Assembly: GCA_024400895.1 (NCBI GenBank)
Contig: JAKSMA010000050.1
Location: 1 to 12,038, forward strand
Length of the DNA: 12,038 nucleotides
Direction: 5' to 3'
Source of the DNA: Muribaculaceae bacterium
GTDB lineage: Bacteria > Bacteroidota > Bacteroidia > Bacteroidales > Muribaculaceae
Below the pieces are notes generated by a model. That model worked only from the letters and a program-made list of their open reading frames with translations, searched no databases and had not been told where the DNA came from. Numbering within the stretch: position 1 is the first letter of the stretch; each line of letters opens with the position of its first letter. The translations under genes and the position numbers were made by a program. Positions 489-11,687 of the stretch are shown one piece after another.

Positions 489-505
489 GTGGAGGGAGGG
501 AGTGG

Positions 506-543
506 CACAAAAAGCACGGCTGGGTGAGAACACCGCCGTGCTT
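506..543 (-). terminator. Intrinsic terminator of nhaD
   Basis: On the minus strand AAGCACGGC and GCCGTGCTT form a perfect 9-bp stem (535-543 with 512-520) around a 14-nt loop, followed directly by TTTTTG. It lies about 50 bp after the nhaD stop codon and has the classic GC stem plus U-tract form. Confidence 0.85.
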
Positions 544-593
544 GATATTATTCCAAAAATTTTCTGGGTAATTAATTTCTATGTTTTCGCTGA

Positions 594-1922
594 TTAGTGG
601 AGCATTGCCACGATGTAGTTTTGTACCCAGTAGGTGAATATACCTGCAAAGTAACCTACTGCCACGAGCCAGCTGATGCGCTTCATGTACCAACCGAAAC
701 TGATGCGTTCGAGACCCATCACCACTACACCAGCAGCTGAGCCTACGATGAGAATACTGCCACCAACACCGGCACAGTAAGCAAGGAGTTGCCAGAAGAG
801 TCCGTCGACTGCATAATCGCCCACGAGGTTGGTGTACATACCCATGCAGCCTGCAACCAGTGGCACATTGTCGACAATACTTGAAACCACGCCGATGATA
901 CCTGTCACGAGGTAGTGGTTGCCGCACGACACTTCGTTGAGCCATTCACCCGCAAGTCCGAGCACCTTGATTTCTTCGAGGCAGCTCACAGCCATGAGGA
1001 TACCGAGGAAGAAGAGGATTGTACTCATATCGATGCGGCCGAGCACTTTGCTCACGCGGCGTTTCATGCTGTCGTGGCGATAGCGCTCTTTGCGGTAGAA
1101 GATTTCGATGGTGGTCCAAAGTACACCCAGCACGAGGAGAATGCCCACAAATGGTGGGAGGTTGGTGAGGTTATGGAACACTGGCACGAAGCACAAACCG
1201 CCTACGCCAAGGCAGAAAATGGTTTTGCGTTCACGGCTTGTGAACGATTCTTCCTCTTTCGTAGAGGTCGATGCAGGCGCGTCAAGTCGTCCTTTGAGCA
1301 TCCATTGCATAATCAATGCCGGTACCACTGCCGAAACGAGCGATGGCAAGAAAATTTCGGTGATTACGCCCGCTGCAGTGAGCAAGCCTTTGTTCCAGAG
1401 CATGATGGTGGTCACGTCGCCGATTGGCGAGAATGCGCCACCGGAGTTGGCCGCAATAATCACAAGCGAAGCAAAGGTCAAACGGTCTTGACGATTGTCG
1501 ACGAGCTTGCGCAGCACCATCACCATCACGATGCTGGTGGTCATATTGTCGAGGATGGCGCTGAGGAAGAAGGTGATAAACACGATTCGCCACATCAGTC
1601 GGCGCTTGCTGGTGGTGCGCAGTGCATCGCGCACAAAATTGAAGCCACCGTTTTGGTCCACGATTTCTACGATGGTCATTGCGCCCATCAAGAAGAAGAG
1701 TGTGGTGGCGGTGCTGCCAAGATGCTTCTCGATTACGGCATTTATCAGCTCGTGAGAGAAGTTAGGGATGTAGCTGGCAGGATCCATCATGAAGAGGGTC
1801 CATGTGGCCACAAACATGAGAAGTGCAATGGCAGCCTTATTGACACGGGTAACGCTTTCAAGGGCGATACATGCGTAGCCCAAGACAAACACCACAACAA
1901 TGGCAATGGTTAATGTAGTCAT
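594..1922 (-). CDS. nhaD: NhaD-type Na+/H+ antiporter
   Basis: A 442-residue integral membrane protein of the ion transporter (IT) superfamily, by its motifs a member of the NhaD family of inner-membrane Na+(Li+)/H+ antiporters that export sodium in exchange for protons. About a dozen hydrophobic segments cover the chain. The paired signatures of the inverted-repeat fold are visible: SAILDNMTTSIVM (121-133) and NSGGAFSPIGDVTTIMLW (159-176) in the first half, and SSIVDNVPLVAG (347-358) and GGSILIVGSAAG (387-398) in the second. The LDN-T and VDN-P elements with their Asp-Asn pairs are the expected ion-path residues. A hydrophilic cytosolic loop (about 212-233) joins the halves. Length is normal and the ATG start directly precedes the first membrane segment. 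It appears monocistronic, with its own promoter (2027-1997) and a strong terminator. Sodium or pH homeostasis is the likely role; the ion specificity is inferred from family membership. Confidence 0.9.
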   Translation of the reverse strand: MTTLTIAIVVVFVLGYACIALESVTRVNKAAIALLMFVATWTLFMMDPASYIPNFSHELINAVIEKHLGSTATTLFFLMGAMTIVEIVDQNGGFNFVRDALRTTSKRRLMWRIVFITFFLSAILDNMTTSIVMVMVLRKLVDNRQDRLTFASLVIIAANSGGAFSPIGDVTTIMLWNKGLLTAAGVITEIFLPSLVSAVVPALIMQWMLKGRLDAPASTSTKEEESFTSRERKTIFCLGVGGLCFVPVFHNLTNLPPFVGILLVLGVLWTTIEIFYRKERYRHDSMKRRVSKVLGRIDMSTILFFLGILMAVSCLEEIKVLGLAGEWLNEVSCGNHYLVTGIIGVVSSIVDNVPLVAGCMGMYTNLVGDYAVDGLFWQLLAYCAGVGGSILIVGSAAGVVVMGLERISFGWYMKRISWLVAVGYFAGIFTYWVQNYIVAMLH

Positions 1923-1996
1923 GCAAAATGCTTAATTTAAAAATATCATACAAATAATAACACTGATTCGGAACTTTCGATTTCCGAGATCGATGA

Positions 1997-2027
1997 CAAA
2001 GGTAGACTTTTTTCCTAACCTGACCAA
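1997..2027 (-). promoter_or_regulatory. Bacteroidetes-type promoter of nhaD
   Basis: On the minus strand TACCTTTG (2004-1997) matches the -7 consensus TAnnTTTG, and ATTGG (2028-2024) provides a -33-like TTG about 20 nt upstream. The predicted start is near 1990, giving a leader of about 70 nt. A small inverted repeat, TCGGAA/TTCCGA (1968-1987), falls at the beginning of that leader. Confidence 0.6.
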
Positions 2028-2099
2028 TTATATCGGCCTAAAAATGTAAAAATATGTTTAAATAGCTACTACTTGCGAAATAAACACCAATTTGGGGAG

Positions 2100-2195
2100 G
2101 GGATTTATAGGATTTTATAGGGCCAATAGGAACAATAGGATTTATAGGATTTATAGGACCTATAGAACTAATAGGGCTTTTAGGATTTAGGGGGA
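2100..2195. repeat. Degenerate A/T-rich tandem repeat (ATAGGATTT-type)
   Basis: About ten imperfect copies of a 9-11 bp unit around TTATAGGA / AATAGGA follow one another (for example GGATTTATAGGATTTATAGG at 2138-2157). The repeat lies between the terminator of the secreted-protein gene and the nhaD promoter. The rest of the 1923-2272 gap contains that promoter and short A/T-rich sequence; I see no gene there. My impression is that similar TCCTAT-rich arrays occur between genes in other Bacteroidales. No function is evident. Confidence 0.6.
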
Positions 2196-2208
2196 GGGAG
2201 AAATGGAG

Positions 2209-2240
2209 GCAGCAGTCGCTCTTGGGAGGGCGACTGCTGC
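2209..2240 (-). terminator. Terminator-like hairpin after the secreted-protein gene
   Basis: GCAGCAGTCGC (2209-2219) pairs perfectly with GCGACTGCTGC (2230-2240) over a 10-nt loop, starting about 33 bp after the stop codon at 2273. On the minus strand the stem is followed by pyrimidine-rich sequence, not a real U-run, so the termination mechanism is less certain than for nhaD. Confidence 0.6.
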
Positions 2241-2272
2241 ATTGCGGGTGATATGCGTTTGAGAGGCGGTGA

Positions 2273-4576
2273 TTACTTCACTGCCACTTTTGTGGCTGAG
2301 CCATCGGTGTAGCGAACGACAAACACGCCACGGCCTTCTGGCACTTGTGAGCCAAGGTATTGGCCAGTGATACTGTAAACGCCAGCTACAGCCTTCACGC
2401 CGCCGTCAATGTTCACGTCCTTCACGCCAGTCACAAGACCTTCCTGTACTATCACATTTGTGAGGCTGTGGTAGGTGGGAGCAAGACCCGACTCTTCGGT
2501 GTAGACAGCTTTCACGTAGAAGGTGAATGTTTCAAGCTCATTCTTGTGCTCACCATCCAGTGGCACTGAAAGCACTTTGGTGTAGCGAGGAAGAGTGGTT
2601 GTAATCATGTGCTTGTCTTCTGGAGCCTGAGCAGGAGTTTCCAACTCGAATGCTTCGTAGTGGCCAGTTTCGTTCTTTGGAAGAACATAGGTGGCTGCAG
2701 GAGTCATGATTTCGTTGAGTTTGCTGTTTGGATCGGCAAAGATAGCATCGCTTGCGTCTTCCACTGGGTGTTCGAGATCTTTAGTGTGGTATGCGCACAC
2801 TTCGTAGTGGTCAACGAATTGTTCGTTTGCAGTAACATCGAACATTACAGGGCAAGCCACATAGTGCTTATCCACTGTTTGACCACCAACCGTTTCGGTA
2901 ATCTTATACTGGCAAATGCTTGCTTTGAGCAAAGTGGTGATTACACCATCAACCGCCACTTCATGGTTATCAATAGCGAGTTGGAGAGTGATGTCTTCAG
3001 AATCGTGGGCTGTTTCGATGTCGATGAGCTCGTAGATGCCGCCACGCTTGTAGTTGTCGTCGCTATCGAAGAGAGCCAAACCAGATGCTGTTCCATTTTG
3101 GCCAGCTTGCAGCTGTTCGTCGGTGCAATACACGTATGGGTCGATGTGCAAATGCTTTGTGCTAATGGTGCGGCAAGTACCGCCGTCAGACACCCATGGG
3201 TTGGTTGCTTCTGATGCTTCGCCATTATCGGCGTGGTGGTGGCGTTGGCCATTGGTCCAAGTGCCTTCCACTCTATCCTTGAGAGCAGTGATACTTTCTG
3301 GGATAATGTGACCATCAGCATCACGGCTGTATGCACCTTCCACGAGGCCAGCGATACGGTTGTCGTGCCAAAGAGTGATGGCATGGTTGTATTTATTGGC
3401 TTCAATCTGTGCGGCAGTCACGCCTTCCACATTCTTGATGGCTTCGTAAGCACGGTGATAGTGGGTGAAGCCTGCAGGGTTTTCTTCGCGGGTGATGAGA
3501 ATCTTGCTTCCATCAGCTTTGAGATAACCAGTGAGAGGGTGAATTTCAGATTTAAGTCCTTCACCATAACCACGATTTACTTGAGTCAAGCCAGTGCCAG
3601 CGAGAAGTTGGTCGAGGTCTGCATCTGTTTGGGTGCCAAGAGTTTGGGTGTAAAGAGGTCCAAAACCAGAGAAATTGTGCATCCAGAACTGGGTGTCGCC
3701 ATTGGCTTTGTCCTCATAGTCGGCAATCGCTTCAAATGAGCGGCCTTCACCATTATGAGTGTCGTTGACAACGGTGTTAGGGTTATAGTGACGGAACTCT
3801 GCATAAAGGAAATCGTAGTGAGTTTCCTCAAAGTCGTCAGCAGTGCCGCGGATGCCATCGACACCATCGTTCTTAACTGCTAAACGCATGAAGTAGTGGC
3901 GCTGTCCCCAATATGGCGCAAGCATCAAGCTTTCGTCGAAGTGGGCATGCCCCCATGGAGTGACACCCAACCATTCAAAGTTGCTAATATCAGTCTGGCT
4001 AAGCCATACCTGAAGCGCGACATCTGAGATTAATGATGTCTCTGTTGTCAATTCTTCAACACCAGTTCTTCTCTTGATGCCTTCTTCTGCGTATGTAAAG
4101 TCGTCGGGTTGCATCATATGAATGCGCACATATTTGTGTTCGTTACCAGTCCCTTTGATCTGGTATTTTTTGTCAACAGGCTGAGCCATCACGTTGCAAT
4201 AGTCATCGCTAATAACGAAATCCCAGTCAAAAAGACCACCGAATGCATTTTCAAGGGTCACCATTTTGGCACTTGTTCCAGCGTTACCATCAAAATCATG
4301 CCAATCAACATCCGCAGTGCTTTTCTGAACAAAGCGACCTTTTGCAAAGCTATCTTTGATCCACATATTATTAGTGAATACCCGGTCTTTTGTAGAGCAG
4401 GCATCGCTTTGGTAGCTTGCTGAATAGAAAAGAGACTGACAATGACCACCATTTGCTGTGAGGATGTCGATAACTTCTTGAGCGGTTTGAGTACGTCCAA
4501 AGATGTCTTGTGCTTGTACGTTTGACGTTGCGAGAGCGCAAAGTGCGAGTAATAATAGTCCTTTAAATTTCTTCAT
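2273..4576 (-). CDS. Large secreted protein of unknown function with C-terminal sorting domain
   Basis: 767 residues from the ATG at 4576. I chose this start over one 22 codons upstream because it opens a clean signal peptide (MKKFKGLLLLALCALATSNVQAQ, cleavage near AQA-QD). I do not recognise the roughly 500-residue core, which is acidic, rich in aromatic residues and His, and contains an HHH near the middle (GQRHHHADNGE). The last 250 residues look like beta-sandwich modules, with segments such as EQFVDHYEVCAYH and ETFTFYVKAVY that resemble fibronectin-III strands. The final 36 residues (GVYSITGQYL..RGVFVVRYTDGSATKVAVK) match the pattern of type-A-like Bacteroidetes C-terminal domains used by the type IX secretion system. 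It is therefore probably exported and surface-attached or released. It has its own promoter (4789-4758), a leader of about 170 nt and a terminator, so it is likely monocistronic despite following the TPM operon closely. Confidence 0.8.
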   Translation of the reverse strand: MKKFKGLLLLALCALATSNVQAQDIFGRTQTAQEVIDILTANGGHCQSLFYSASYQSDACSTKDRVFTNNMWIKDSFAKGRFVQKSTADVDWHDFDGNAGTSAKMVTLENAFGGLFDWDFVISDDYCNVMAQPVDKKYQIKGTGNEHKYVRIHMMQPDDFTYAEEGIKRRTGVEELTTETSLISDVALQVWLSQTDISNFEWLGVTPWGHAHFDESLMLAPYWGQRHYFMRLAVKNDGVDGIRGTADDFEETHYDFLYAEFRHYNPNTVVNDTHNGEGRSFEAIADYEDKANGDTQFWMHNFSGFGPLYTQTLGTQTDADLDQLLAGTGLTQVNRGYGEGLKSEIHPLTGYLKADGSKILITREENPAGFTHYHRAYEAIKNVEGVTAAQIEANKYNHAITLWHDNRIAGLVEGAYSRDADGHIIPESITALKDRVEGTWTNGQRHHHADNGEASEATNPWVSDGGTCRTISTKHLHIDPYVYCTDEQLQAGQNGTASGLALFDSDDNYKRGGIYELIDIETAHDSEDITLQLAIDNHEVAVDGVITTLLKASICQYKITETVGGQTVDKHYVACPVMFDVTANEQFVDHYEVCAYHTKDLEHPVEDASDAIFADPNSKLNEIMTPAATYVLPKNETGHYEAFELETPAQAPEDKHMITTTLPRYTKVLSVPLDGEHKNELETFTFYVKAVYTEESGLAPTYHSLTNVIVQEGLVTGVKDVNIDGGVKAVAGVYSITGQYLGSQVPEGRGVFVVRYTDGSATKVAVK

Positions 4577-4757
4577 TAATTGATTTTTGTAATTTGTTAT
4601 ATTAGTAATTATTTGTAATCCCAAAATTAAAAAATCACCCAATTAGCCTTTTTCAAGTATACTACAAAAAGATACAGTATTAGTGAAAATATCAAATTCT
4701 GCTATTTGTCAGGGGAGAAGTATATTAGTAATAGTGCCGACTCAATCATCGGCAATA

Positions 4758-4789
4758 CAAAGATACAACCGCAAACGTTGGTTTGCAAA
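4758..4789 (-). promoter_or_regulatory. Consensus Bacteroidetes promoter of the secreted-protein gene
   Basis: On the minus strand TTTG (4789-4786), 20 nt, then TATCTTTG (4765-4758) match both consensus boxes exactly. The predicted start is near 4750, giving an unusually long A/T-rich leader of about 170 nt. An inverted repeat GCAAAC/GTTTGC (4771-4786, 4-nt loop) fills the spacer and touches the -33 box, so it could be an operator. A second one, GCCGA/TCGGC (4736-4753), lies at the predicted RNA 5' end. The promoter begins only about 45 bp after the last TPM gene, and no clear terminator lies between them. Confidence 0.7.
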
Positions 4790-4833: not shown

Positions 4834-5469
4834 TTACGAGAAAGTTTTCGATGTGTTTTTTTGGCGGCGAGGGAAAAGAATAGCCACAAGAATGAGCGCA
4901 ATCCCTGCGCCAATATACCATTGCCACCACTTGCCCGTGCGCGCCACGCGATAGTCGTCGGCAGTATAGGTGCCTTCCATCACCCCTTTTACATAGGGCA
5001 GCACATTGCGGATGGCATATTCCACGGAATGGCCGTCGTAGATAGGTCCTCGCACCTTGTCGGTGCACAGATTCCGTGCAAATTTTCTGGGGAAACGAGC
5101 AGCAAGTTGAGGCGATGGAAAGAGGAACACTTCAGGCCGCTTGTTCTCGCCAAGCATCTGTATGGCAATCACCACGGTGGGCTTTTGTGCGGAGTGAATC
5201 GTACGGAAAACATCTTCCGCCACAACGCTGACGTGGCGAGGCATCGACACAGAGTCGACCACAGCCACAGCAATCACATTGCCGGTTGTTTTTTCATAGT
5301 CGAGCAGTTCCTGCTGCAAACGCGCAGCTGAATCGGGGTTGATGGCGTGGATGAGGTCGCTGACACGAGTCGACGAGAGTGCACTATCGGCAGCACGCAT
5401 CGCTGATGAGCAAAAGCCCACCAGCGACACAATCGTTGCCAATAATATTTTCTGTGCGAAAGGTTTCAA
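4834..5469 (-). CDS. Divergent, degenerate TPM-like membrane protein (last of array)
   Basis: 211 residues. No ATG exists between the preceding in-frame stop (5491-5493) and the signal peptide, so I take the TTG at 5469. It starts 1 nt after the TGA of the preceding gene, which suggests translational coupling. Residues 1-26 form a signal peptide (ILLATIVSLVGFCSSAMRAADS). Residues about 35-165 keep the outline of a TPM domain (VSDLIHAINPDSAARLQQEL, VIAVAVVDSV), but the hallmark W-G-V-G, D-N-G and G-R-G-L-E segments of its neighbours are missing. A membrane segment at about 184-199 (WYIGAGIALILVAILF) is followed by a short basic tail (RRQKNTSK), which places the C-terminus in the cytosol. It lacks the glycine/tryptophan tail. 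Assignment to the TPM superfamily rests on layout, operon position and weak similarity. It may be a structural, non-catalytic subunit. Confidence 0.7.
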   Translation of the reverse strand: MKPFAQKILLATIVSLVGFCSSAMRAADSALSSTRVSDLIHAINPDSAARLQQELLDYEKTTGNVIAVAVVDSVSMPRHVSVVAEDVFRTIHSAQKPTVVIAIQMLGENKRPEVFLFPSPQLAARFPRKFARNLCTDKVRGPIYDGHSVEYAIRNVLPYVKGVMEGTYTADDYRVARTGKWWQWYIGAGIALILVAILFPRRQKNTSKTFS

Positions 5470-5470
5470 A

Positions 5471-6037
5471 TCACTTTGCTTGCGCCTTGTCTAAGCGCTC
5501 GTAGATTTCGTCGAGAGCAGCCTTCACAGCACCGTAATAGTCGCCAGCCTGAAGGCAAGGAGTCATCTTCTTGTTGATAATGTCTTGGCAAATTGGGTAA
5601 GGAAGAGTGCGCTGCACGCCCACGCCTGTGGCAATAGCCAACTGACCTTGCGACTTTTCAGTTTTAGGCTTGATGAGAATCACCACGCCATCTTGCTTTT
5701 CCTTGTCGCCAACGCCCCACTTTTCGCCCACTTTTTTGGCGAAATCCAATGGCACATCGCCGCCGATGCCGTCGACAGTGACCACAGTCACAGGATATTC
5801 CTTCGAACGAATGTAGTCTTCGATTTCTCTTGCGCTGTCGGTAAGCACTTGCGCGAAGTCGTTCAGTGCCATGTTGGAAGATTGGGGCACATCGGTCAGA
5901 CGCATAACTGTTGGAATAGATGGGTCTTTCACATTTTCTGATGCGCTGCCACTATTCTCAGAACCAGATTTTGTGCACATGGTGAAAGTCATCACCATTG
6001 CCACCATCATAAAGATGGAAAAAACGATTTTTTTCAT
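5471..6037 (-). CDS. TPM-domain lipoprotein
   Basis: 188 residues. The N-terminus has a lipoprotein signal peptide ending at a lipobox-like F-T-M-C with Cys21, followed by a Ser/Gly/Asn linker; Bacteroidetes lipoboxes are often loose. The TPM domain spans about 57-180 and shows ALNDFAQVLTDSA, VTVVTVDGIGG, EKWGVGDKEKQDGVVILIKP and IATGVGVQRTLP. The usual G-R-G-L-E is replaced by G-V-G-V-Q. Unlike its neighbours it ends right after the domain, with no membrane segment or glycine/tryptophan tail. It is therefore predicted to be tethered by lipid in the periplasm, on the inner or outer membrane. A 202-bp gap separates it from the preceding TPM gene, and it is coupled to the next one by a 1-nt gap. 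Some TPM proteins (plant TLP18.3) have been reported as acid phosphatases; whether this one has activity cannot be told. Confidence 0.85.
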   Translation of the reverse strand: MKKIVFSIFMMVAMVMTFTMCTKSGSENSGSASENVKDPSIPTVMRLTDVPQSSNMALNDFAQVLTDSAREIEDYIRSKEYPVTVVTVDGIGGDVPLDFAKKVGEKWGVGDKEKQDGVVILIKPKTEKSQGQLAIATGVGVQRTLPYPICQDIINKKMTPCLQAGDYYGAVKAALDEIYERLDKAQAK

Positions 6038-6239
6038 TGCAGAATTGGGTTTGTGATTTTATTGTTAATTATTTTTTTTAGGGGGAAGTTAAGAAGTTAT
6101 GAAGTTAAAGAAGTTAAGACGATACCTGGAGCTGTTGATATTTCTTTGTGTGTGGGGGTCTCCTTCATCAGCTTTGACATTCGTCTCAATTTCTTAACAT
6201 CTTCAATCCCTAAACTTCCAAAAGAATCTTCTCCTCCAA
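6038..6239. repeat. Intra-operon gap with GAAGTTAA tandem repeat
   Basis: The only large gap in the TPM operon. Four consecutive copies of GAAGTTAW lie at 6085-6117. A related inverted copy, TCTTAACATCTTC (about 6192-6204), could pair with them. No TAnnTTTG promoter is present on the minus strand, no ORF is credible, and no strong terminator is visible. The hairpin potential could make it an RNA-processing or attenuation site that sets the level of the last two genes, but this is speculative. Confidence 0.5.
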
Positions 6240-6986
6240 TTACCAAGAGCCACCGGCACCGCCACCGCCGAAGGAGCCACCGCCAAAGCCGCCCCAGCTG
6301 CTACTCGAACTGCTTGAGAAGCCTGATGAGCCGCTGGAAGTGTAGGAGCCACTACCATCAGACCCGTATATCCACAATCCAATAATCACCACAAATATGA
6401 TGATCGCGATTATCCAATCGGTGAGGGAGAGGTCGTTATCATCTTGGTAGGTTTCGAAATTGTATTCGCCACGGCAAACCGGCATAATCACATTCAGGGC
6501 AGCCCATGTGGCAGCGGTGTAGTCGTTGTCTTCTTTGAGGCATGGAATCATCTTGTCCTCAACGATTCGATGGCAGAACACATCGGGCAACGCGCCTTCC
6601 AGACCTCGGCCTGTGGCAATATATACCTCACCTTTCGAGAAGGTGGTCTTCTCCTTAAAGAGAATCACGATGCCGTTGTCTTCCTTTGCCTGACCCACGC
6701 CCCAGCGGTCGCCAATTTCGGTGGCGAATTGGTTGGGGGTGAAGCCGTGCAAATCGTCAACGGTCACAATCACCACCTGGTTGGATGTCTGGTTGGAAAG
6801 CGCACGCAAACTGTCTTCCAGCTCCAGAACGGTCTCGGCGCTGAACAAATTAGCGAAGTCGTTGACCAATCTCGGAGGATATGGGCGCTCGGGAATGCCA
6901 TCGCCACCCTTCGCCGATGCCGCTACCGACGCCAACAAGAGCGCCATCACGCAGCAAATTCTGAACAGATAGAAATTCTTTTTCAT
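6240..6986 (-). CDS. Membrane-anchored TPM-domain protein with Ser/Gly tail
   Basis: 248 residues from the ATG at 6986. An in-frame start 9 codons upstream would spoil the signal peptide MKKNFYLFRICCVMALLLASVAASA, cleaved near residue 25. The TPM domain (about 40-172) is complete: LVNDFANLFSAE, SNQVVIVTVDDLHG, IGDRWGVGQ, EDNGIVILF, TGRGLEGALPDVFCHRI and VCRGEYNFETY. A membrane helix (190-206) follows, then a low-complexity tail (209-248) in which aromatic residues Y215, F223 and W231 separate Ser/Gly blocks of seven. The tail ends in WGGFGGGSFGGGGAGGSW, a typical YgcG-type ending. The TPM domain should be periplasmic and the tail cytosolic. DNA and protein identity to the 405-residue gene upstream is high, pointing to tandem duplication. 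Confidence 0.9.
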   Translation of the reverse strand: MKKNFYLFRICCVMALLLASVAASAKGGDGIPERPYPPRLVNDFANLFSAETVLELEDSLRALSNQTSNQVVIVTVDDLHGFTPNQFATEIGDRWGVGQAKEDNGIVILFKEKTTFSKGEVYIATGRGLEGALPDVFCHRIVEDKMIPCLKEDNDYTAATWAALNVIMPVCRGEYNFETYQDDNDLSLTDWIIAIIIFVVIIGLWIYGSDGSGSYTSSGSSGFSSSSSSSWGGFGGGSFGGGGAGGSW

Positions 6987-7022
6987 ATCACTTGGTAAAA
7001 TTCTTGAAATCATAAATATGGA

Positions 7023-8240
7023 TTACCATTCGCCACTGGCGCCGCCGCCGCTGAAAGAGCCACCGCCAAAATCGCCCCAGTCGCTGTCGTAATCGCTGTC
7101 GCTATCGCTATCCCAACCGCTACTGGTCCAACTGCCGCCCAAGGTGGAAGACAGTCCCACTTTCTTTAAGAGGCGGCCTCCGTAGAACAGACTGTCGACA
7201 ATCGCTAAAATCATTGGCCCCATCACGCACAGCATGCATATCCAAGCCAAAATCATCGTCAGCAAATCCTTCGAATCCATTTCCTGTTCGTAGGATTCAA
7301 AATTGTATTCGCCCCGACACACCGGTATGATGACATCCAGGGCTGCCCAAGTGGCTGCGGTGTAGTCGTTGCCGTCTTTCAGGCATGGAATCATCTTATC
7401 GTCGATGATTCGATGGCAGAACACATCGGGCAATGCACCTTCCAGACCACGCCCCGGCGCTATCGCCACCTTGCCTTTTTCATAGTCGGTCTTTGGCTTG
7501 ATGAGAATCACCACACCATTGTCGATTTTTTTCTGACCCACACCCCATTTGTCGCCAAGTTTGGCAGCAAACATCGTGGGGTCTTCATCCTTCAGGTCGG
7601 TGACCGTGACCACCACAATCTGGTTGGAGGTGTGTTTAGCCAAAGCGCGCAGCGAATCCTCCATTGCTTGGATATCGCGGTCGGAAAACACGCAAGCGTA
7701 GTCGTTGACAAGCGTGTGTGGAGTAGGCAATGCAAACACATCTCCGGTGAAAGGCTTTCGGTCAGTGCCCACACTCTCGGCCGCCGACAAAGGACTACCT
7801 TCTATGCTGTCGCCCGGATTTTGAGCCGAGGCTGTGGCAAAAGTTTCATCGTCCACAGCGCTGCCTTGCTCATCTTTCACGCTTTCAGCATACTCGTATT
7901 TCCTCGAAGGCTCGCTGCCAGATGATGAAGAGTCATCGTCGTCGCCACTAACAACCGCAGCTATCACAACAAAAGCCATGAAAATGCCGAATACCCAAAA
8001 AAACTCTTTCCGCGCTTTGCGTTTCTCCTCCTGAGAAGCGCTGGTGGCATCGGGAGGAGTGCTTGGTGGCACTTTCCCTGCATTTGCGCTGACAGGCGAA
8101 GGAACGTCTTTGCCAGTTGGCGCGGGCATAGGTGGAGGAGCAGGAGGTGTGGCCGCGCGTCGTGCTACCCTCTCTGCATCAAAGGGTGGAGGCACAGCTG
8201 CCCCACCCTTTTGCGCATATTCTGTTTCCTTCTTGTTCAT
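7023..8240 (-). CDS. Two-span TPM-domain protein with Pro-rich N-terminus and Ser/Asp tail
   Basis: 405 residues. There is no cleavable signal. A proline-rich cytosolic N-terminus (1-79) opens with the motif QKGGAAVPPPFDAE, which is shared with the next paralog upstream. It is followed by a membrane helix (about 80-98, preceded by the basic run KRKARK), an acidic/Ser linker (99-170), a TPM domain (177-310; LVNDYACVF, LGDKWGVGQKK, DNGVVILIKP, GRGLEGALPDVFCHRI, VCRGEYNFESY), a second helix (327-352) and a tail. The tail has W-spaced Ser/Asp dipeptides (WDSDSDSDYDSDW) and ends GDFGGGSFSGGGASGEW. The positive-inside rule puts both termini in the cytosol and the TPM domain in the periplasm. The gene starts 4 nt after the stop of its upstream paralog. 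Cysteines 183, 275, 286 and 308 lie in the periplasmic domain. Confidence 0.88.
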   Translation of the reverse strand: MNKKETEYAQKGGAAVPPPFDAERVARRAATPPAPPPMPAPTGKDVPSPVSANAGKVPPSTPPDATSASQEEKRKARKEFFWVFGIFMAFVVIAAVVSGDDDDSSSSGSEPSRKYEYAESVKDEQGSAVDDETFATASAQNPGDSIEGSPLSAAESVGTDRKPFTGDVFALPTPHTLVNDYACVFSDRDIQAMEDSLRALAKHTSNQIVVVTVTDLKDEDPTMFAAKLGDKWGVGQKKIDNGVVILIKPKTDYEKGKVAIAPGRGLEGALPDVFCHRIIDDKMIPCLKDGNDYTAATWAALDVIIPVCRGEYNFESYEQEMDSKDLLTMILAWICMLCVMGPMILAIVDSLFYGGRLLKKVGLSSTLGGSWTSSGWDSDSDSDYDSDWGDFGGGSFSGGGASGEW

Positions 8241-8244
8241 TCAA

Positions 8245-9507
8245 TTACCACGAGCCGCTGGCGCCACCGCCGCTGAAAGAGCCGCCGCCAAAGCCGCCCC
8301 AGCTACTGCTTGAGCTACTGCTGCTCCAACTGCTACTGCTGCTCGAGCTACTATAGCTACTGCTTGAGCTGCTACTGCTCCAAGTGCCGCTACCGCTGCC
8401 AGAGTTGAGTCCCCATTTTTTAGAGAAACGATCTTTCAAGAACACGCCATCGATGATTAAGAAAAGGATTGGGCCCCAAATGAGAAGCAAGCAAGTCCAT
8501 CCAATCCATCCGAGCACTTCGTCTTCCTCATCCTTTGCTTTTTCGTAGCTTTCGTAGTTGTATTCGCCACGGCACACTGGCATAATCACATCCAGCGCAG
8601 CGCGTGTGGCAGCCACATAGTCGTTGCCTTTTTTGAGTTCTGGAATCATCTCGTCTTGGATGATTCTGTTACAGAACGCATCAGGAAGCGCGCCTTCCAA
8701 TCCACGACCTGGCGCTATAGCCACCTCACCCTTGGATGTGTCAGTTTTGGGTTTGATGAGGATAATTAAGCCATTGTCTTCCTTTTTCTGACCCACGCCC
8801 CACTTGTCGCCAAGTTTAGCGGCATAGATATTAGGATTTTCGCCATAGAGGTCGGTTACCGTAACCACCACGATTTGGTTGGAAGTGGCGCCCGAGAATG
8901 CTTTCAGTTCGTAGTCCATCGTCTTAACCACCGAGTCGGGGAACACGCAGGCAAAGTCGTTGACCAACGCGTCGGGTCTTGGGAGGTCGAGGATGTCGCC
9001 TTCGTATGGCTCGCGAACAGGTTCTGCGGCAGAAGCCTTTGCTGCGGTGTTCGCACCATCTTCTTTTGAAGCCAATGCTGGGCTCGACTCTCCGTCTTCG
9101 GCAGATGCCTGATTCGAGCTTTTGGCTTTCACCGTCTGCTCAACCTGCGACTTTACATCTTTGTTTTGATTCGTGGACTTGGGTCGGTTTTTGTCATCCT
9201 GTGTGAATTGACCTATCACGCCCAACACCAAAAAGATGCCCACAATCCACACCCAAGTCTTGACTTTTTTCTTTGGGGGCTCGGTCGTGAGCTTAACGCC
9301 GGTCGCCGCCTTTTGCTTTTGTTTATTCGCCTTTGGGGCTTCGGTCGACGAGAGTTTCATGCCTTCGCCAGAAGTAGCAGGCACAGTCGATTCGTCACCC
9401 TCTGGGAATGGAGGCGGAACTGTTTGCTTTGCCGCCTTTTCTGCATTAAAAGGGGCAGGCACGGCTGCCCCACCCTTTTGTGTATGATTGTGTTTGTTTT
9501 TGCTCAT
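8245..9507 (-). CDS. Two-span TPM-domain protein with perfect Ser-8/aromatic repeat tail
   Basis: 420 residues with the same architecture as the 405-residue gene downstream. The cytosolic N-terminus opens with QKGGAAVPAPFNAE, then come a Lys/Pro-rich stretch, a membrane helix (about 84-101), a hydrophilic linker with Ala/Ser/Glu (102-178), a TPM domain (181-314; LVNDFACVF, SNQIVVVTVTDLYGE, LGDKWGVGQKKEDNG, GRGLEGALPDAFCNRI, VCRGEYNYESY) and a second helix (331-356). The tail is exceptionally regular: W376, eight Ser, Y385, eight Ser, W394, eight Ser, W403, then GGFGGGSFSGGGASGSW. Basic residues after helix 2 (KDRFSKKW) predict a cytosolic tail. The second TPM cysteine found in the 405- and 248-residue paralogs is Glu here (IPELKK), as in the 298-residue paralog. 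It starts 12 nt after that gene's stop codon. Confidence 0.88.
   Translation of the reverse strand: MSKNKHNHTQKGGAAVPAPFNAEKAAKQTVPPPFPEGDESTVPATSGEGMKLSSTEAPKANKQKQKAATGVKLTTEPPKKKVKTWVWIVGIFLVLGVIGQFTQDDKNRPKSTNQNKDVKSQVEQTVKAKSSNQASAEDGESSPALASKEDGANTAAKASAAEPVREPYEGDILDLPRPDALVNDFACVFPDSVVKTMDYELKAFSGATSNQIVVVTVTDLYGENPNIYAAKLGDKWGVGQKKEDNGLIILIKPKTDTSKGEVAIAPGRGLEGALPDAFCNRIIQDEMIPELKKGNDYVAATRAALDVIMPVCRGEYNYESYEKAKDEEDEVLGWIGWTCLLLIWGPILFLIIDGVFLKDRFSKKWGLNSGSGSGTWSSSSSSSSYSSSSSSSSWSSSSSSSSWGGFGGGSFSGGGASGSW
8299..8382. repeat. In-frame 27-bp tandem repeat encoding (W/Y)-Ser8 units
   Basis: Three 27-bp units encode aromatic-Ser8 blocks, bounded by tryptophan codons at 8299-8301, 8326-8328 and 8380-8382 and a tyrosine codon at 8353-8355. 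The serine codons within units vary (AGC, AGT, TCA, TCG), so the array is ancient or selected at protein level, not a recent slippage product. Confidence 0.8.
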
Positions 9508-9519
9508 AACTGATTGTTA

Positions 9520-10416
9520 TTACCATTCGCTGCTGGCACCGCCACCATCGAATGTACCACCACCGAATTTTTCTGCATTTGCACGCTTGCGACGCTCTTC
9601 TTCTTCTTGCTTTTCGCGCGCCGACTTGAATACGCCTTTGGCCGCAGCTGCAGCACCAGCAATGGCACGCTCAGCTTCACGCTTTTTGCGTTCTTCTTCA
9701 AGTTCTTTTTTTCGTTGTTCTGCCGCAGCAAGGCGAGCAGCACGCTCTTCGGGCGTTTCGGTTGCTTCCCGAAGTGCCTGTTTTTTCTTTGCACGGTTGT
9801 TGCTGTAGGCCACGCCACCAACTATTGCGCCGAAAATACCCACAAACCACATCCAGCCGTTGCCATCACCGCCCGAAGATTTCTTCTTCATTGCATCTTC
9901 CGCCGAGATTTCGCCCGCGCAGATAGGCATCACGGTTTTCAACACAGCCCAAACAGCGGCGTCATAGTCGCCTTTCTTGAGTTCTGGAATAGCCTTGCCA
10001 TCGACGATGCGCTTACAGGCGACATCTGGCAAGGCGCCATTCAAGCCACGGCCAGGACAAAGCGCGAACTGTCCTTTAGAATCATTGGTTTTGGGCTTGA
10101 TAAGGATAATCATACCGTTGTCGAGTTTCTTCTGACCCACACCCCAACGGTCGCCAAGTTCGGCAGCATACATTTTGGGGTCGTAGTCGCCAAGATCCTT
10201 CACGGTAATCACCATAATCTGGTTGGTGGTGCGCTTTGAGAAAGCACGGAGCGAATCGTCCATTGCCTTCACCTGGTCGGCTTTAAGCATACCGGCAAAG
10301 TCGTGCACGAAAATCGCAGTATCGGGGCGAGCAGGGAAGTCGGCATCGGCAGCATAACTGGTAGCCGACATCATCACAGCCACAGCCGCGAGCAATAAGA
10401 ATTTAATTTTCTTCAT
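9520..10416 (-). CDS. Membrane-anchored TPM-domain protein with charged coiled-coil tail
   Basis: 298 residues from the ATG at 10416, which opens a signal peptide (MKKIKFLLLAAVAVMMSATS, cleaved after SYA near residue 22). An upstream ATG at 10458 would add 14 residues that do not fit a signal. The TPM domain (33-167) shows FVHDFAGMLKADQ, TNQIMVITVKDLGDYD, LGDRWGVGQKKLDNG, CPGRGLNGALPDVACKRI and GDYDAAVWAVLK. A membrane helix (187-205) is followed by a Lys/Glu/Arg/Ala-rich segment (207-282) that is very likely a long helical coiled coil, in place of the serine tail of the other paralogs. It still ends with the shared FGGGTFDGGGASSEW. This conservation across unrelated linkers suggests the terminal motif itself is functional, for example as a docking or assembly signal. 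It is the second TPM gene after lemA and the closest to the classical YgcG partner. Confidence 0.9.
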   Translation of the reverse strand: MKKIKFLLLAAVAVMMSATSYAADADFPARPDTAIFVHDFAGMLKADQVKAMDDSLRAFSKRTTNQIMVITVKDLGDYDPKMYAAELGDRWGVGQKKLDNGMIILIKPKTNDSKGQFALCPGRGLNGALPDVACKRIVDGKAIPELKKGDYDAAVWAVLKTVMPICAGEISAEDAMKKKSSGGDGNGWMWFVGIFGAIVGGVAYSNNRAKKKQALREATETPEERAARLAAAEQRKKELEEERKKREAERAIAGAAAAAKGVFKSAREKQEEEERRKRANAEKFGGGTFDGGGASSEW

Positions 10417-10461
10417 TGTTGTAGGTTTTTGTAGTTGAAAGAACGAAGTGAGCGTCAACGC

Positions 10462-10914
10462 CTATTCGTCGTCTTCGTCGTCGGAGAACGAAACTTCGTT
10501 GCTCAGTTCGTCCACATCGTCGTCCACTGGTGGGAAGTAAGCAGCAAGTGCATCGCCAATTTGCGACACCACTTCACAAAGGCCATCGGCAGGTTTGCCT
10601 TGAGAAAGATATTTTCCCAAAGTTTCCTTTTCATCGTGCCAATAGTCGTCGGGCACCACATCGTTGATGCCTTGATCGCCTAAAATAGCAAACTTTTTGC
10701 TCTTGTAGGCCACATAGATGAGCACACCATTGCGGCGCTCGGTTTTGTAGAGACCGAGTTTGTTGAACTTCTTCTCTGCCGCTTCCATCACATCTCCGCG
10801 GCACTTGGGCGTAACATGCACGCATATTTCGCCCGAAGTGCGCTTTTCAGCCATAGTTATGGCCTCGGTGATGCGGGTTTGGTCATCTTTTGGAATAAAA
10901 TCGCTAAGACCCAT
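10462..10914 (-). CDS. Small cytosolic TPM-domain protein with acidic tail
   Basis: 150 residues with no signal peptide or membrane segment. The short TPM form covers about 8-128 (RITEAITMAEKRTSGEICVHV, AAEKKFNKLGLYKTERRNGVLIYVAYKSKKFAILGDQGI, SQGKPADGLCEVVSQIGDAL). This is the version usually found directly after lemA in Bacteroidetes, which supports co-function. The C-terminal 20 residues are strongly acidic (PPVDDDVDELSNEVSFSDDE), a possible interaction surface for the basic juxtamembrane segments of the other operon members. The start codon is 25 nt after the lemA stop, in A/T-rich sequence without a Shine-Dalgarno. Confidence 0.9.
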   Translation of the reverse strand: MGLSDFIPKDDQTRITEAITMAEKRTSGEICVHVTPKCRGDVMEAAEKKFNKLGLYKTERRNGVLIYVAYKSKKFAILGDQGINDVVPDDYWHDEKETLGKYLSQGKPADGLCEVVSQIGDALAAYFPPVDDDVDELSNEVSFSDDEDDE

Positions 10915-10939
10915 TTATTGATAATCTAAATAATGTGAA

Positions 10940-11593
10940 TTAGTCGAAGTTAACGGTTGGAGCGTTTTCAGCACCTTCTTTAGCCTTGAAGTGAGGCTTG
11001 GTCTTGAAACCGAACATGCCAGCGAAAATGTTGGTTGGGAAGCGACGAACCTTGGTGTTGTATTCTTGAGCACCTTCGTTGAAGTCGGTCACAGCCTTAG
11101 TAATGCGGTTTTCAGTACCTTCGAGTTGAGATTGGAGGTCGAGGAAGTTTTGGTTAGCCTTCAATTCTGGATATGCTTCACTCACTGCCATCAACTTGCT
11201 AAGAGCGCCGCTCATTTGTTCTTGAGCCTTTTGGAACTTTTCAAGTTGTTCGTCGGTCATGTTTTCAGCGTTGATGTTGATTTGACCAATCTTGGTACGA
11301 GCTTCAGTCACTTCAGTGAATACCTTTTCTTCGTGCTTAGCATAGCCCTTAACCACATTCACGAGGTTAGGAACGAGGTTGGCACGACGGTCGTACTGTG
11401 CTTCCACATTTGCCCAATATTTTTCTACATCTTCTTCTTGAGCTACGAGTCCGTTGTAAGAGCTGATGCACCACATAACAAAAATACCTACTGCACCGAT
11501 GATGAGCCATTTCGACATGCCACCGCGAGATGCAGGAGCAGATTGTTGTTGAGGAGCTGGATTAGGGTTTGCGTTGTTGCCCAAAGTGTTCAT
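10940..11593 (-). CDS. lemA: LemA family membrane protein
   Basis: 217 residues, near the family's usual length. A short Asn/Pro/Gln-rich N-terminus (1-25) precedes one membrane helix (about 29-45, WLIIGAVGIFVMWCISSYN). The LemA signature follows: YNGLVAQEEDVEKYWANVEAQYDRRANLVPNLVNVVKGYAKHEEKV (46-91). The rest is helical (AYPELKANQNFLDLQSQLEGTENRI, 140-164) and ends with RRFPTNIFAGMFGFK, a conserved LemA terminus. An internal ATG at codon 26 would also give a typical LemA start. I keep the long form because its frame is open and begins 62 nt after the promoter's -7 box. LemA proteins are envelope proteins of unclear biochemical role, often encoded with TPM proteins. This is the first gene of the operon. 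Confidence 0.93.
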   Translation of the reverse strand: MNTLGNNANPNPAPQQQSAPASRGGMSKWLIIGAVGIFVMWCISSYNGLVAQEEDVEKYWANVEAQYDRRANLVPNLVNVVKGYAKHEEKVFTEVTEARTKIGQININAENMTDEQLEKFQKAQEQMSGALSKLMAVSEAYPELKANQNFLDLQSQLEGTENRITKAVTDFNEGAQEYNTKVRRFPTNIFAGMFGFKTKPHFKAKEGAENAPTVNFD

Positions 11594-11654: not shown

Positions 11655-11687
11655 CAAAGATAATGATTTTGAGGAAATACTTGCAAC
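11655..11687 (-). promoter_or_regulatory. Bacteroidetes-type promoter of the lemA-TPM operon
   Basis: On the minus strand TATCTTTG (11662-11655) matches the -7 consensus TAnnTTTG, and GTTG (11687-11684) is a one-mismatch -33 box 21 nt upstream. Transcription should begin near 11648, with a leader of about 55 nt before the lemA ATG. It starts only about 15 nt after the stop of the gene to the right, and no terminator is visible between them, so read-through from that gene is possible. Confidence 0.7.

Follow-up and report, generated by a model that had tools for sequence, protein, structure and literature searches.

A lemA gene row with seven TPM-domain genes in a Muribaculaceae bacterium and its possible role at the cell envelope

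Why should a single lemA gene be followed by seven members of one other family? The question is raised by a 12,038-nucleotide stretch of Muribaculaceae DNA (contig JAKSMA010000050.1 of assembly GCA_024400895.1; 'the window' is the whole of this stretch), in which lemA (10940–11593) and seven TPM-domain genes (together 4834–10914) form eight intact open genes, all on the minus strand. We named the TPM genes T1–T7 in reading order, with lemA first. They comprise one cytosolic copy of the BA42 type, four copies with a canonical core and a shared C-terminal tail, and two copies with a degenerate core. Our answer is tentative and held at a little less than even confidence: the row would act with LemA as an adaptor set, mostly predicted to be membrane-anchored, that helps to assemble or protect protein complexes of the cell envelope. 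That the seven-TPM row is a maintained set is supported by its presence in a second assembly and by purifying selection on each copy, taken together with seven TPM members, one promoter motif and a division of the copies by predicted location.

The family assignments proposed in an earlier note on this DNA, made from the sequence alone, are borne out by curated Pfam cut-offs (26.2 bits for LemA, PF04011; 22.1 bits for TPM, PF04536), which all eight proteins pass; the outcome that most members fail to match the TPM domain did not arise. LemA (217 residues) scores 193.7 bits, has a single N-terminal span (residues 24–47) and matches the structure 2etd_A with an E-value of 7.8e-41. All seven TPM proteins lie above their threshold, T7 by a mere 1.6 bits. 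The genes are tightly packed, with gaps of 25 bp (lemA–T1), 45 bp (T1–T2), 12 bp (T2–T3), 4 bp (T3–T4), 9 bp (T4–T5) and 1 bp (T6–T7); the spacing of 1–45 bp described earlier thus applies to six of seven gaps, the remaining one (T5–T6) being 202 bp.

T1 (10462–10914; 72.9 bits) is a stand-alone TPM domain with an acidic end and no span. It matches BA42, a cytosolic TPM protein of Bizionia argentinensis (4oa3_A, E 1.1e-30), and falls within the cytosolic TPM clade of our first tree, which alone places it and contains many open forks. By simple hydropathy, T2 and T5 start with a signal peptide and have a single span behind the domain; in T3 and T4 a Pro-rich head comes first and the domain is flanked by a span on either side. 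Beyond the last span, T2 (9520–10416, its start set at the ATG at 10416; 111.4 bits; orthologues P0124–P0153) carries a charged, coiled-coil-like linker, T3 (8245–9507; 111.3 bits) a Ser-rich linker, T4 (7023–8240; 120.1 bits) a Ser/Asp linker and T5 (6240–7013; 114.7 bits) a Ser/aromatic linker; translation of T5 may alternatively start at the ATG at 6986. T5 resembles BA41, a membrane TPM protein of the same Bizionia species, along its whole chain including the tail (5anp_A, E 1.9e-26). T6 (5471–6037; 88.6 bits) is an exported single-domain TPM and a possible lipoprotein, and T7 (4834–5469; 23.7 bits) has a signal peptide, a degenerate TPM domain and, by simple hydropathy, a C-terminal span; both are tail-less. 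The suggested division by location therefore holds at the level of prediction, with cytosolic, one-span, two-span and exported forms all present.

The last 14 residues of T2, T3, T4 and T5 all conform to GGGxFxGGGAxxxW (9523–9564, 8248–8289, 7026–7067 and 6243–6284, respectively, on the minus strand). The earlier note had called the tails diversified; this is true of the linkers, which differ in kind, and not of their ends, where one motif is invariant. Together with the TPM domain and span, a glycine-rich tail ending in Trp places T2–T5 in the BA41 type. The tail supplies 7 of the 16 invariant columns in alignment A2, the rows of which were of our choosing. Its distribution was examined in the best 80 named lemA loci of at least 578 confirmed, where TPM genes were sought with a profile built from the seven in the window and 'cytosolic' denotes no span by simple hydropathy. 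Of the 77 loci that have a TPM gene, 72 encode a TPM protein with a terminal tail of this type; they range from Bacteroidota to Acinetobacter and Neisseria, and several of the other five carry near variants. By the positive-inside rule, the charges that follow the final span in T2, T3 and T4 assign linker and tail to the cytosolic side; T5 has little charge after its span. On this rule the TPM domains of T2–T5 would be periplasmic and their linkers and tails cytosolic. The invariant tail could then serve as a common docking element, with the variable linkers setting reach or partner.

Does the row behave as one transcription unit? The motif TTG-N21-TATCTTTG, which we take to be a promoter type of Bacteroidota, sits 62 bp upstream of lemA (11655–11686, minus strand), and a pattern scan of the window found no paired motif inside the lemA–T7 row, in agreement with the single promoter postulated earlier. 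Elsewhere in the window the scan gave just two paired matches, at 4765, immediately past the row, and at 2004, ahead of an antiporter gene; all three recur in G043, a second assembly described below, with the lemA motif in the same place. Three matches are reached by 16 of 200 shuffled sequences, so that the count alone is not rare; the fit lies in where the matches stand. A different parse takes lemA–T1–T5 as one unit and T6–T7 as another with its own start, divided at the 202-bp gap (6038–6239, minus strand). This is the sole long gap and is nearly unchanged in G043, a 173-bp gap precedes T6 in the more distant species G042, and T6 and T7 are degenerate copies placed in other clades. The gap contains no paired promoter motif, however, whereas the three remaining gene blocks each have one ahead of them, and a short TPM of the T6 clade sits inside the lemA row in other members of the genus. 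We consider two modules distinctly unlikely.

An assembly artefact or one-genome oddity had to be considered, given that the window genome is 67% complete and that the G042 contig has a broken lemA start. This explanation is rejected because an independent assembly, G043 (JAUNNJ010000070.1; L068/L148), carries all eight genes in unchanged order, at ~96% identity and with spacing nearly kept, and we now find it scarcely credible. A restriction of the array to one assembly, which the earlier note had named as the outcome that would count against it, did not occur. The LemA protein is identical between the two, and the ratio of nonsynonymous to synonymous divergence (dN/dS) is 0 for lemA and 0.11, 0.09, 0.22, 0.20, 0.03, 0.04 and 0.13 for T1–T7. 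The T3 and T4 gene starts in G043 share a 78-bp, 91% repeat, which hints at exchange between copies. In G042 (recA synonymous divergence, dS, 1.3), T7, T6 and two genes of the T3–T5 type adjoin the same antiporter gene. Its lemA start (L161, 5001–6400) has an internal stop and then runs into a TPM gene, reflecting either a genuine deletion or an error of assembly; repeats around TATAACAAAGGGACGGTTC lie between its TPM genes. Two protein trios, P0142/P0005/P0031 from a 7,704-base contig and P0033/P0006/P0017 from a 7,077-base contig, point to the T2-type and two-span TPMs occurring together in further species, with the T5 type also accompanying the P0142 trio; from the equal size of their source contigs we infer that the members of each trio share a single contig.

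The lemA–TPM unit is common and its seven-fold form is uncommon. As the earlier note supposed, LemA commonly has one or two TPM genes beside it (75 of the best 80 loci: two in 47 and one in 28); three loci have none, one (Niastella) has three and one (G043) has seven. The common row of Bacteroidota and Acinetobacter, in which lemA is accompanied by one cytosolic and one tail-bearing TPM, accounts for 42 of the 80, and seven copies occur only in the window and in G043. TPM matches per genome across 101 genomes of the genus are 0 in 14, 1 in 1, 2 in 59, 3 in 6, 4 in 6, 5 in 12, 6 in 1 and 7 in 2, the last being the window's genome and G043. Outside the genus, 182 genomes of the family show one or two TPM matches each, apart from 14 without any and G101 with four; the maximum in 147 other genomes of the phylum (completeness at least 90%) is five. 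A general occurrence of the expanded array in Bacteroidales is not supported: of all genomes searched, just two, both among the 101 of the genus, have the complete row. Names attached to related proteins (Sodaliphilus sp., Muribaculaceae) make Sodaliphilus the likely genus. In the window's own assembly the row lies on one contig, and no TPM or LemA matches were found outside it in the 67% that is covered, so that TPM counts for this genome are lower bounds. Literature searches on the LemA–TPM pair returned no title on an expanded lemA row among the matches listed, and a search on LMTP1 (9h70) and 7tbr yielded no paper.

Smaller expansions and TPM genes away from lemA also occur. Expanded rows of the same genus (for example G006, G026 and G097, and G030 with five linked TPMs) share lemA and cytosolic, short exported and tail-bearing TPMs with the window; they differ in having fewer copies and no two-span copies, and their BA41-like copies come from another clade. 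In G030 (L157, 11096–12507), two adjoining LemA-like genes stand ahead of the five TPM genes. Thirteen genus genomes (L150, L152, L156, L165, L167, L170, L171, L173, L176, L178, L181, L182 and L185) have an additional Ser-tailed TPM gene, and the stretch examined around it shows no lemA. In other genera of the family, the 30 best TPM loci (L038–L067) encode TPM proteins of 411–453 residues with two spans after the domain and a glycine–Trp tail; no lemA was found within the 3.4 kb examined.

The origin of the copies was addressed with a second, more careful tree, which retains 102 of the 172 rows of the first and leaves out its cytosolic rows together with some distant outgroups, fragments and near-duplicates. 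T2–T5 form one 27-row clade (support 100/99), in which T2 and T5 have separate orthologue groups and T3 and T4 fall in no resolved group. The row probably arose by tandem duplication from a common unit of lemA, a cytosolic TPM and a tail-bearing membrane TPM. The approximately unbiased (AU) test rejects a union of T5 with the BA41-like copies found in the other expanded lineage (p 9e-7). The radiation is therefore a separate one, or else copies have come to resemble each other through exchange. A grouping of the T2 group with the acid-tail clade of the genus is not rejected by the same test (p 0.20), and convergence between the charged linker of T2 and the acidic tails seen elsewhere in the genus is unsupported. 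Recent duplication without division of labour, the extra copies serving dosage or drifting, would suit the youth of T2–T5 relative to T1 and T6, a genus copy number ranging from 0 to 7 and the signs of exchange at the T3 and T4 starts in G043. It sits poorly with purifying selection on each copy, with T2 and T5 having their own orthologue groups in other species and with heads, spans and linkers that differ in kind, and we give it little credence.

Many conserved residues are missing from T6 and T7. Of 15 key positions, which were drawn from alignment A2 and favour T2–T5 since that alignment is rich in T2–T5-like rows, T3, T4 and T5 keep 15, T2 keeps 14, T6 keeps 8 and T7 keeps 4; T1 keeps 7, following the pattern of its own subfamily. 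T6 clusters with short exported, mostly lipoprotein-like TPMs of other genus members. Its signal has an atypical lipobox, in which Met precedes the Cys where our lipoprotein criterion expects Ala, Ser or Gly; the same Met occurs in the G042 orthologue, and 17 other short TPMs compared have A, S or G. T7 forms a long branch with the G042 copy in the careful tree, and a protein search with it yielded three clusters. It is nevertheless predicted to fold as a TPM domain (mean predicted local distance difference test score, pLDDT, 84.8; best structure match 5anp_B, E 4.7e-7), and it is under purifying selection. T6 and T7 may be non-catalytic or regulatory subunits.

A partnership with LemA is suggested by joint absence. 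In 198 family genomes, LemA is missing from 14, TPM from 14 and both from 7 (p 4e-6, relatedness ignored). In the 140 of high quality, three lack LemA, all three also lack TPM and none lacks LemA alone (p 8e-5, again ignoring relatedness); these three genomes belong to three genera. The genes adjoin in some family genomes and lie far apart in others (1.76 and 0.26 Mb on one contig in G188), so linkage alone is insufficient to account for their co-loss.

Could the row instead encode a set of enzymes? T2–T5 would then be phosphatases or nucleotidases that are tethered to the membrane, face the periplasm and have diversified in substrate; T1 would be a phosphatase of the cytosol, and T6/T7 would be regulators without activity. 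Titles cited by PMC9478572 credit cold-adapted TPM proteins of Bizionia, the BA41 and BA42 relatives, with ATPase/ADPase and phosphatase activity. T1 is close to BA42 and T5 to BA41, and the conserved core is kept in T2–T5 and lost in T6/T7. Against enzymes, two comparative papers doubt a phosphatase role, TPM proteins occur as structural partners in large complexes, and the row holds no substrate or pathway gene. We regard an enzymatic set as possible and on balance doubtful.

The adaptor set that we prefer must itself answer several observations that weigh against it. Besides the Bizionia activities, T2–T5 retain 14–15 of the 15 key residues, as enzymes would, and 4 of the 140 high-quality family genomes keep LemA without TPM. 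Of the 72 tail-bearing loci, 30 have no linked cytosolic TPM, which makes it less likely that the tail needs T1 as its receptor. Finally, the structure model of T4 (pLDDT 70.7 on average and 88–97 in the blocks of the domain), which predicts a TPM fold, shows the tail as an ordered strand (pLDDT 80–97). In the model this strand presumably packs on T4's own TPM domain, a position that a cytosolic tail could not reach, and this contradicts the placement given by the positive-inside rule. A more specific form of the adaptor proposal, a hetero-oligomeric TPM machine, is speculative and unlikely as a whole: TPM domains outside, 14-residue tails docking inside on LemA or the T1 TPM fold, and linkers that differ in length and charge, along with the pseudo-TPMs T6/T7, tuning cargo, so that the lemA row would be a modular transmembrane scaffold with subunit number raised by duplication.

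Known systems provide partial parallels. BA41 and BA42, the genes of which we take to lie beside lemA in Bizionia, are a single named protein each, whereas the window has four canonical copies and two degenerate ones. T5 gives the best score to the Psb32/TLP18.3 photosystem II factors, at 52.2 bits, below the NF047379 cut-off of 160, and there is no photosystem. The window LemA belongs to the LemA family and scores 110.5 bits in the comparison with MamQ, its magnetosome relative, for which the NF040966 cut-off is 250 bits; no magnetosome genes are present in the window.

The flank beyond the row may have a separate history. Positions 504–4500 are far more divergent from G043 than the array, at 55–92% identity in most 300-bp bins, and dS is 0.45 for the antiporter gene and 0.02 for lemA. 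A recent transfer of the array between the window genome and G043 was considered and dropped, since background dS (0.143 for recA, 0.071 for a gyrB/parE-type gene and 0.066 for an 826-residue gene) lies near that of the array genes and 504–4500 is the divergent side. Because divergence there far exceeds both the array and the three background genes, the sequence suggests replacement of 504–4500 by recombination. Positions 2273–4642 encode a 789-residue exported protein, the N-terminal part of which is strongly diverged from its G043 counterpart and which has no match in Pfam or NCBIfam. An NhaD-like gene is present in 4 of 50 loci searched besides the window (L148, L161, L163 and L187), and we place little weight on this neighbour for that reason. 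In G004 and G044 (L187, 8989–13567; L163, 8049–12660), a lemA–TPM–TPM row is followed by a gene that, from its start, we take to be secDF-like and then by the NhaD-like antiporter gene; a presumably FeoAB-like gene lies upstream. No RNA families or tRNAs were found in the window.

LemA and TPM proteins occur widely, and this row offers a ready-made dissection of the latter into cytosolic, canonical, two-span, exported and degenerate forms with one constant tail. The pattern of joint TPM and LemA loss across the family makes the partnership testable in cultured Bacteroidota.
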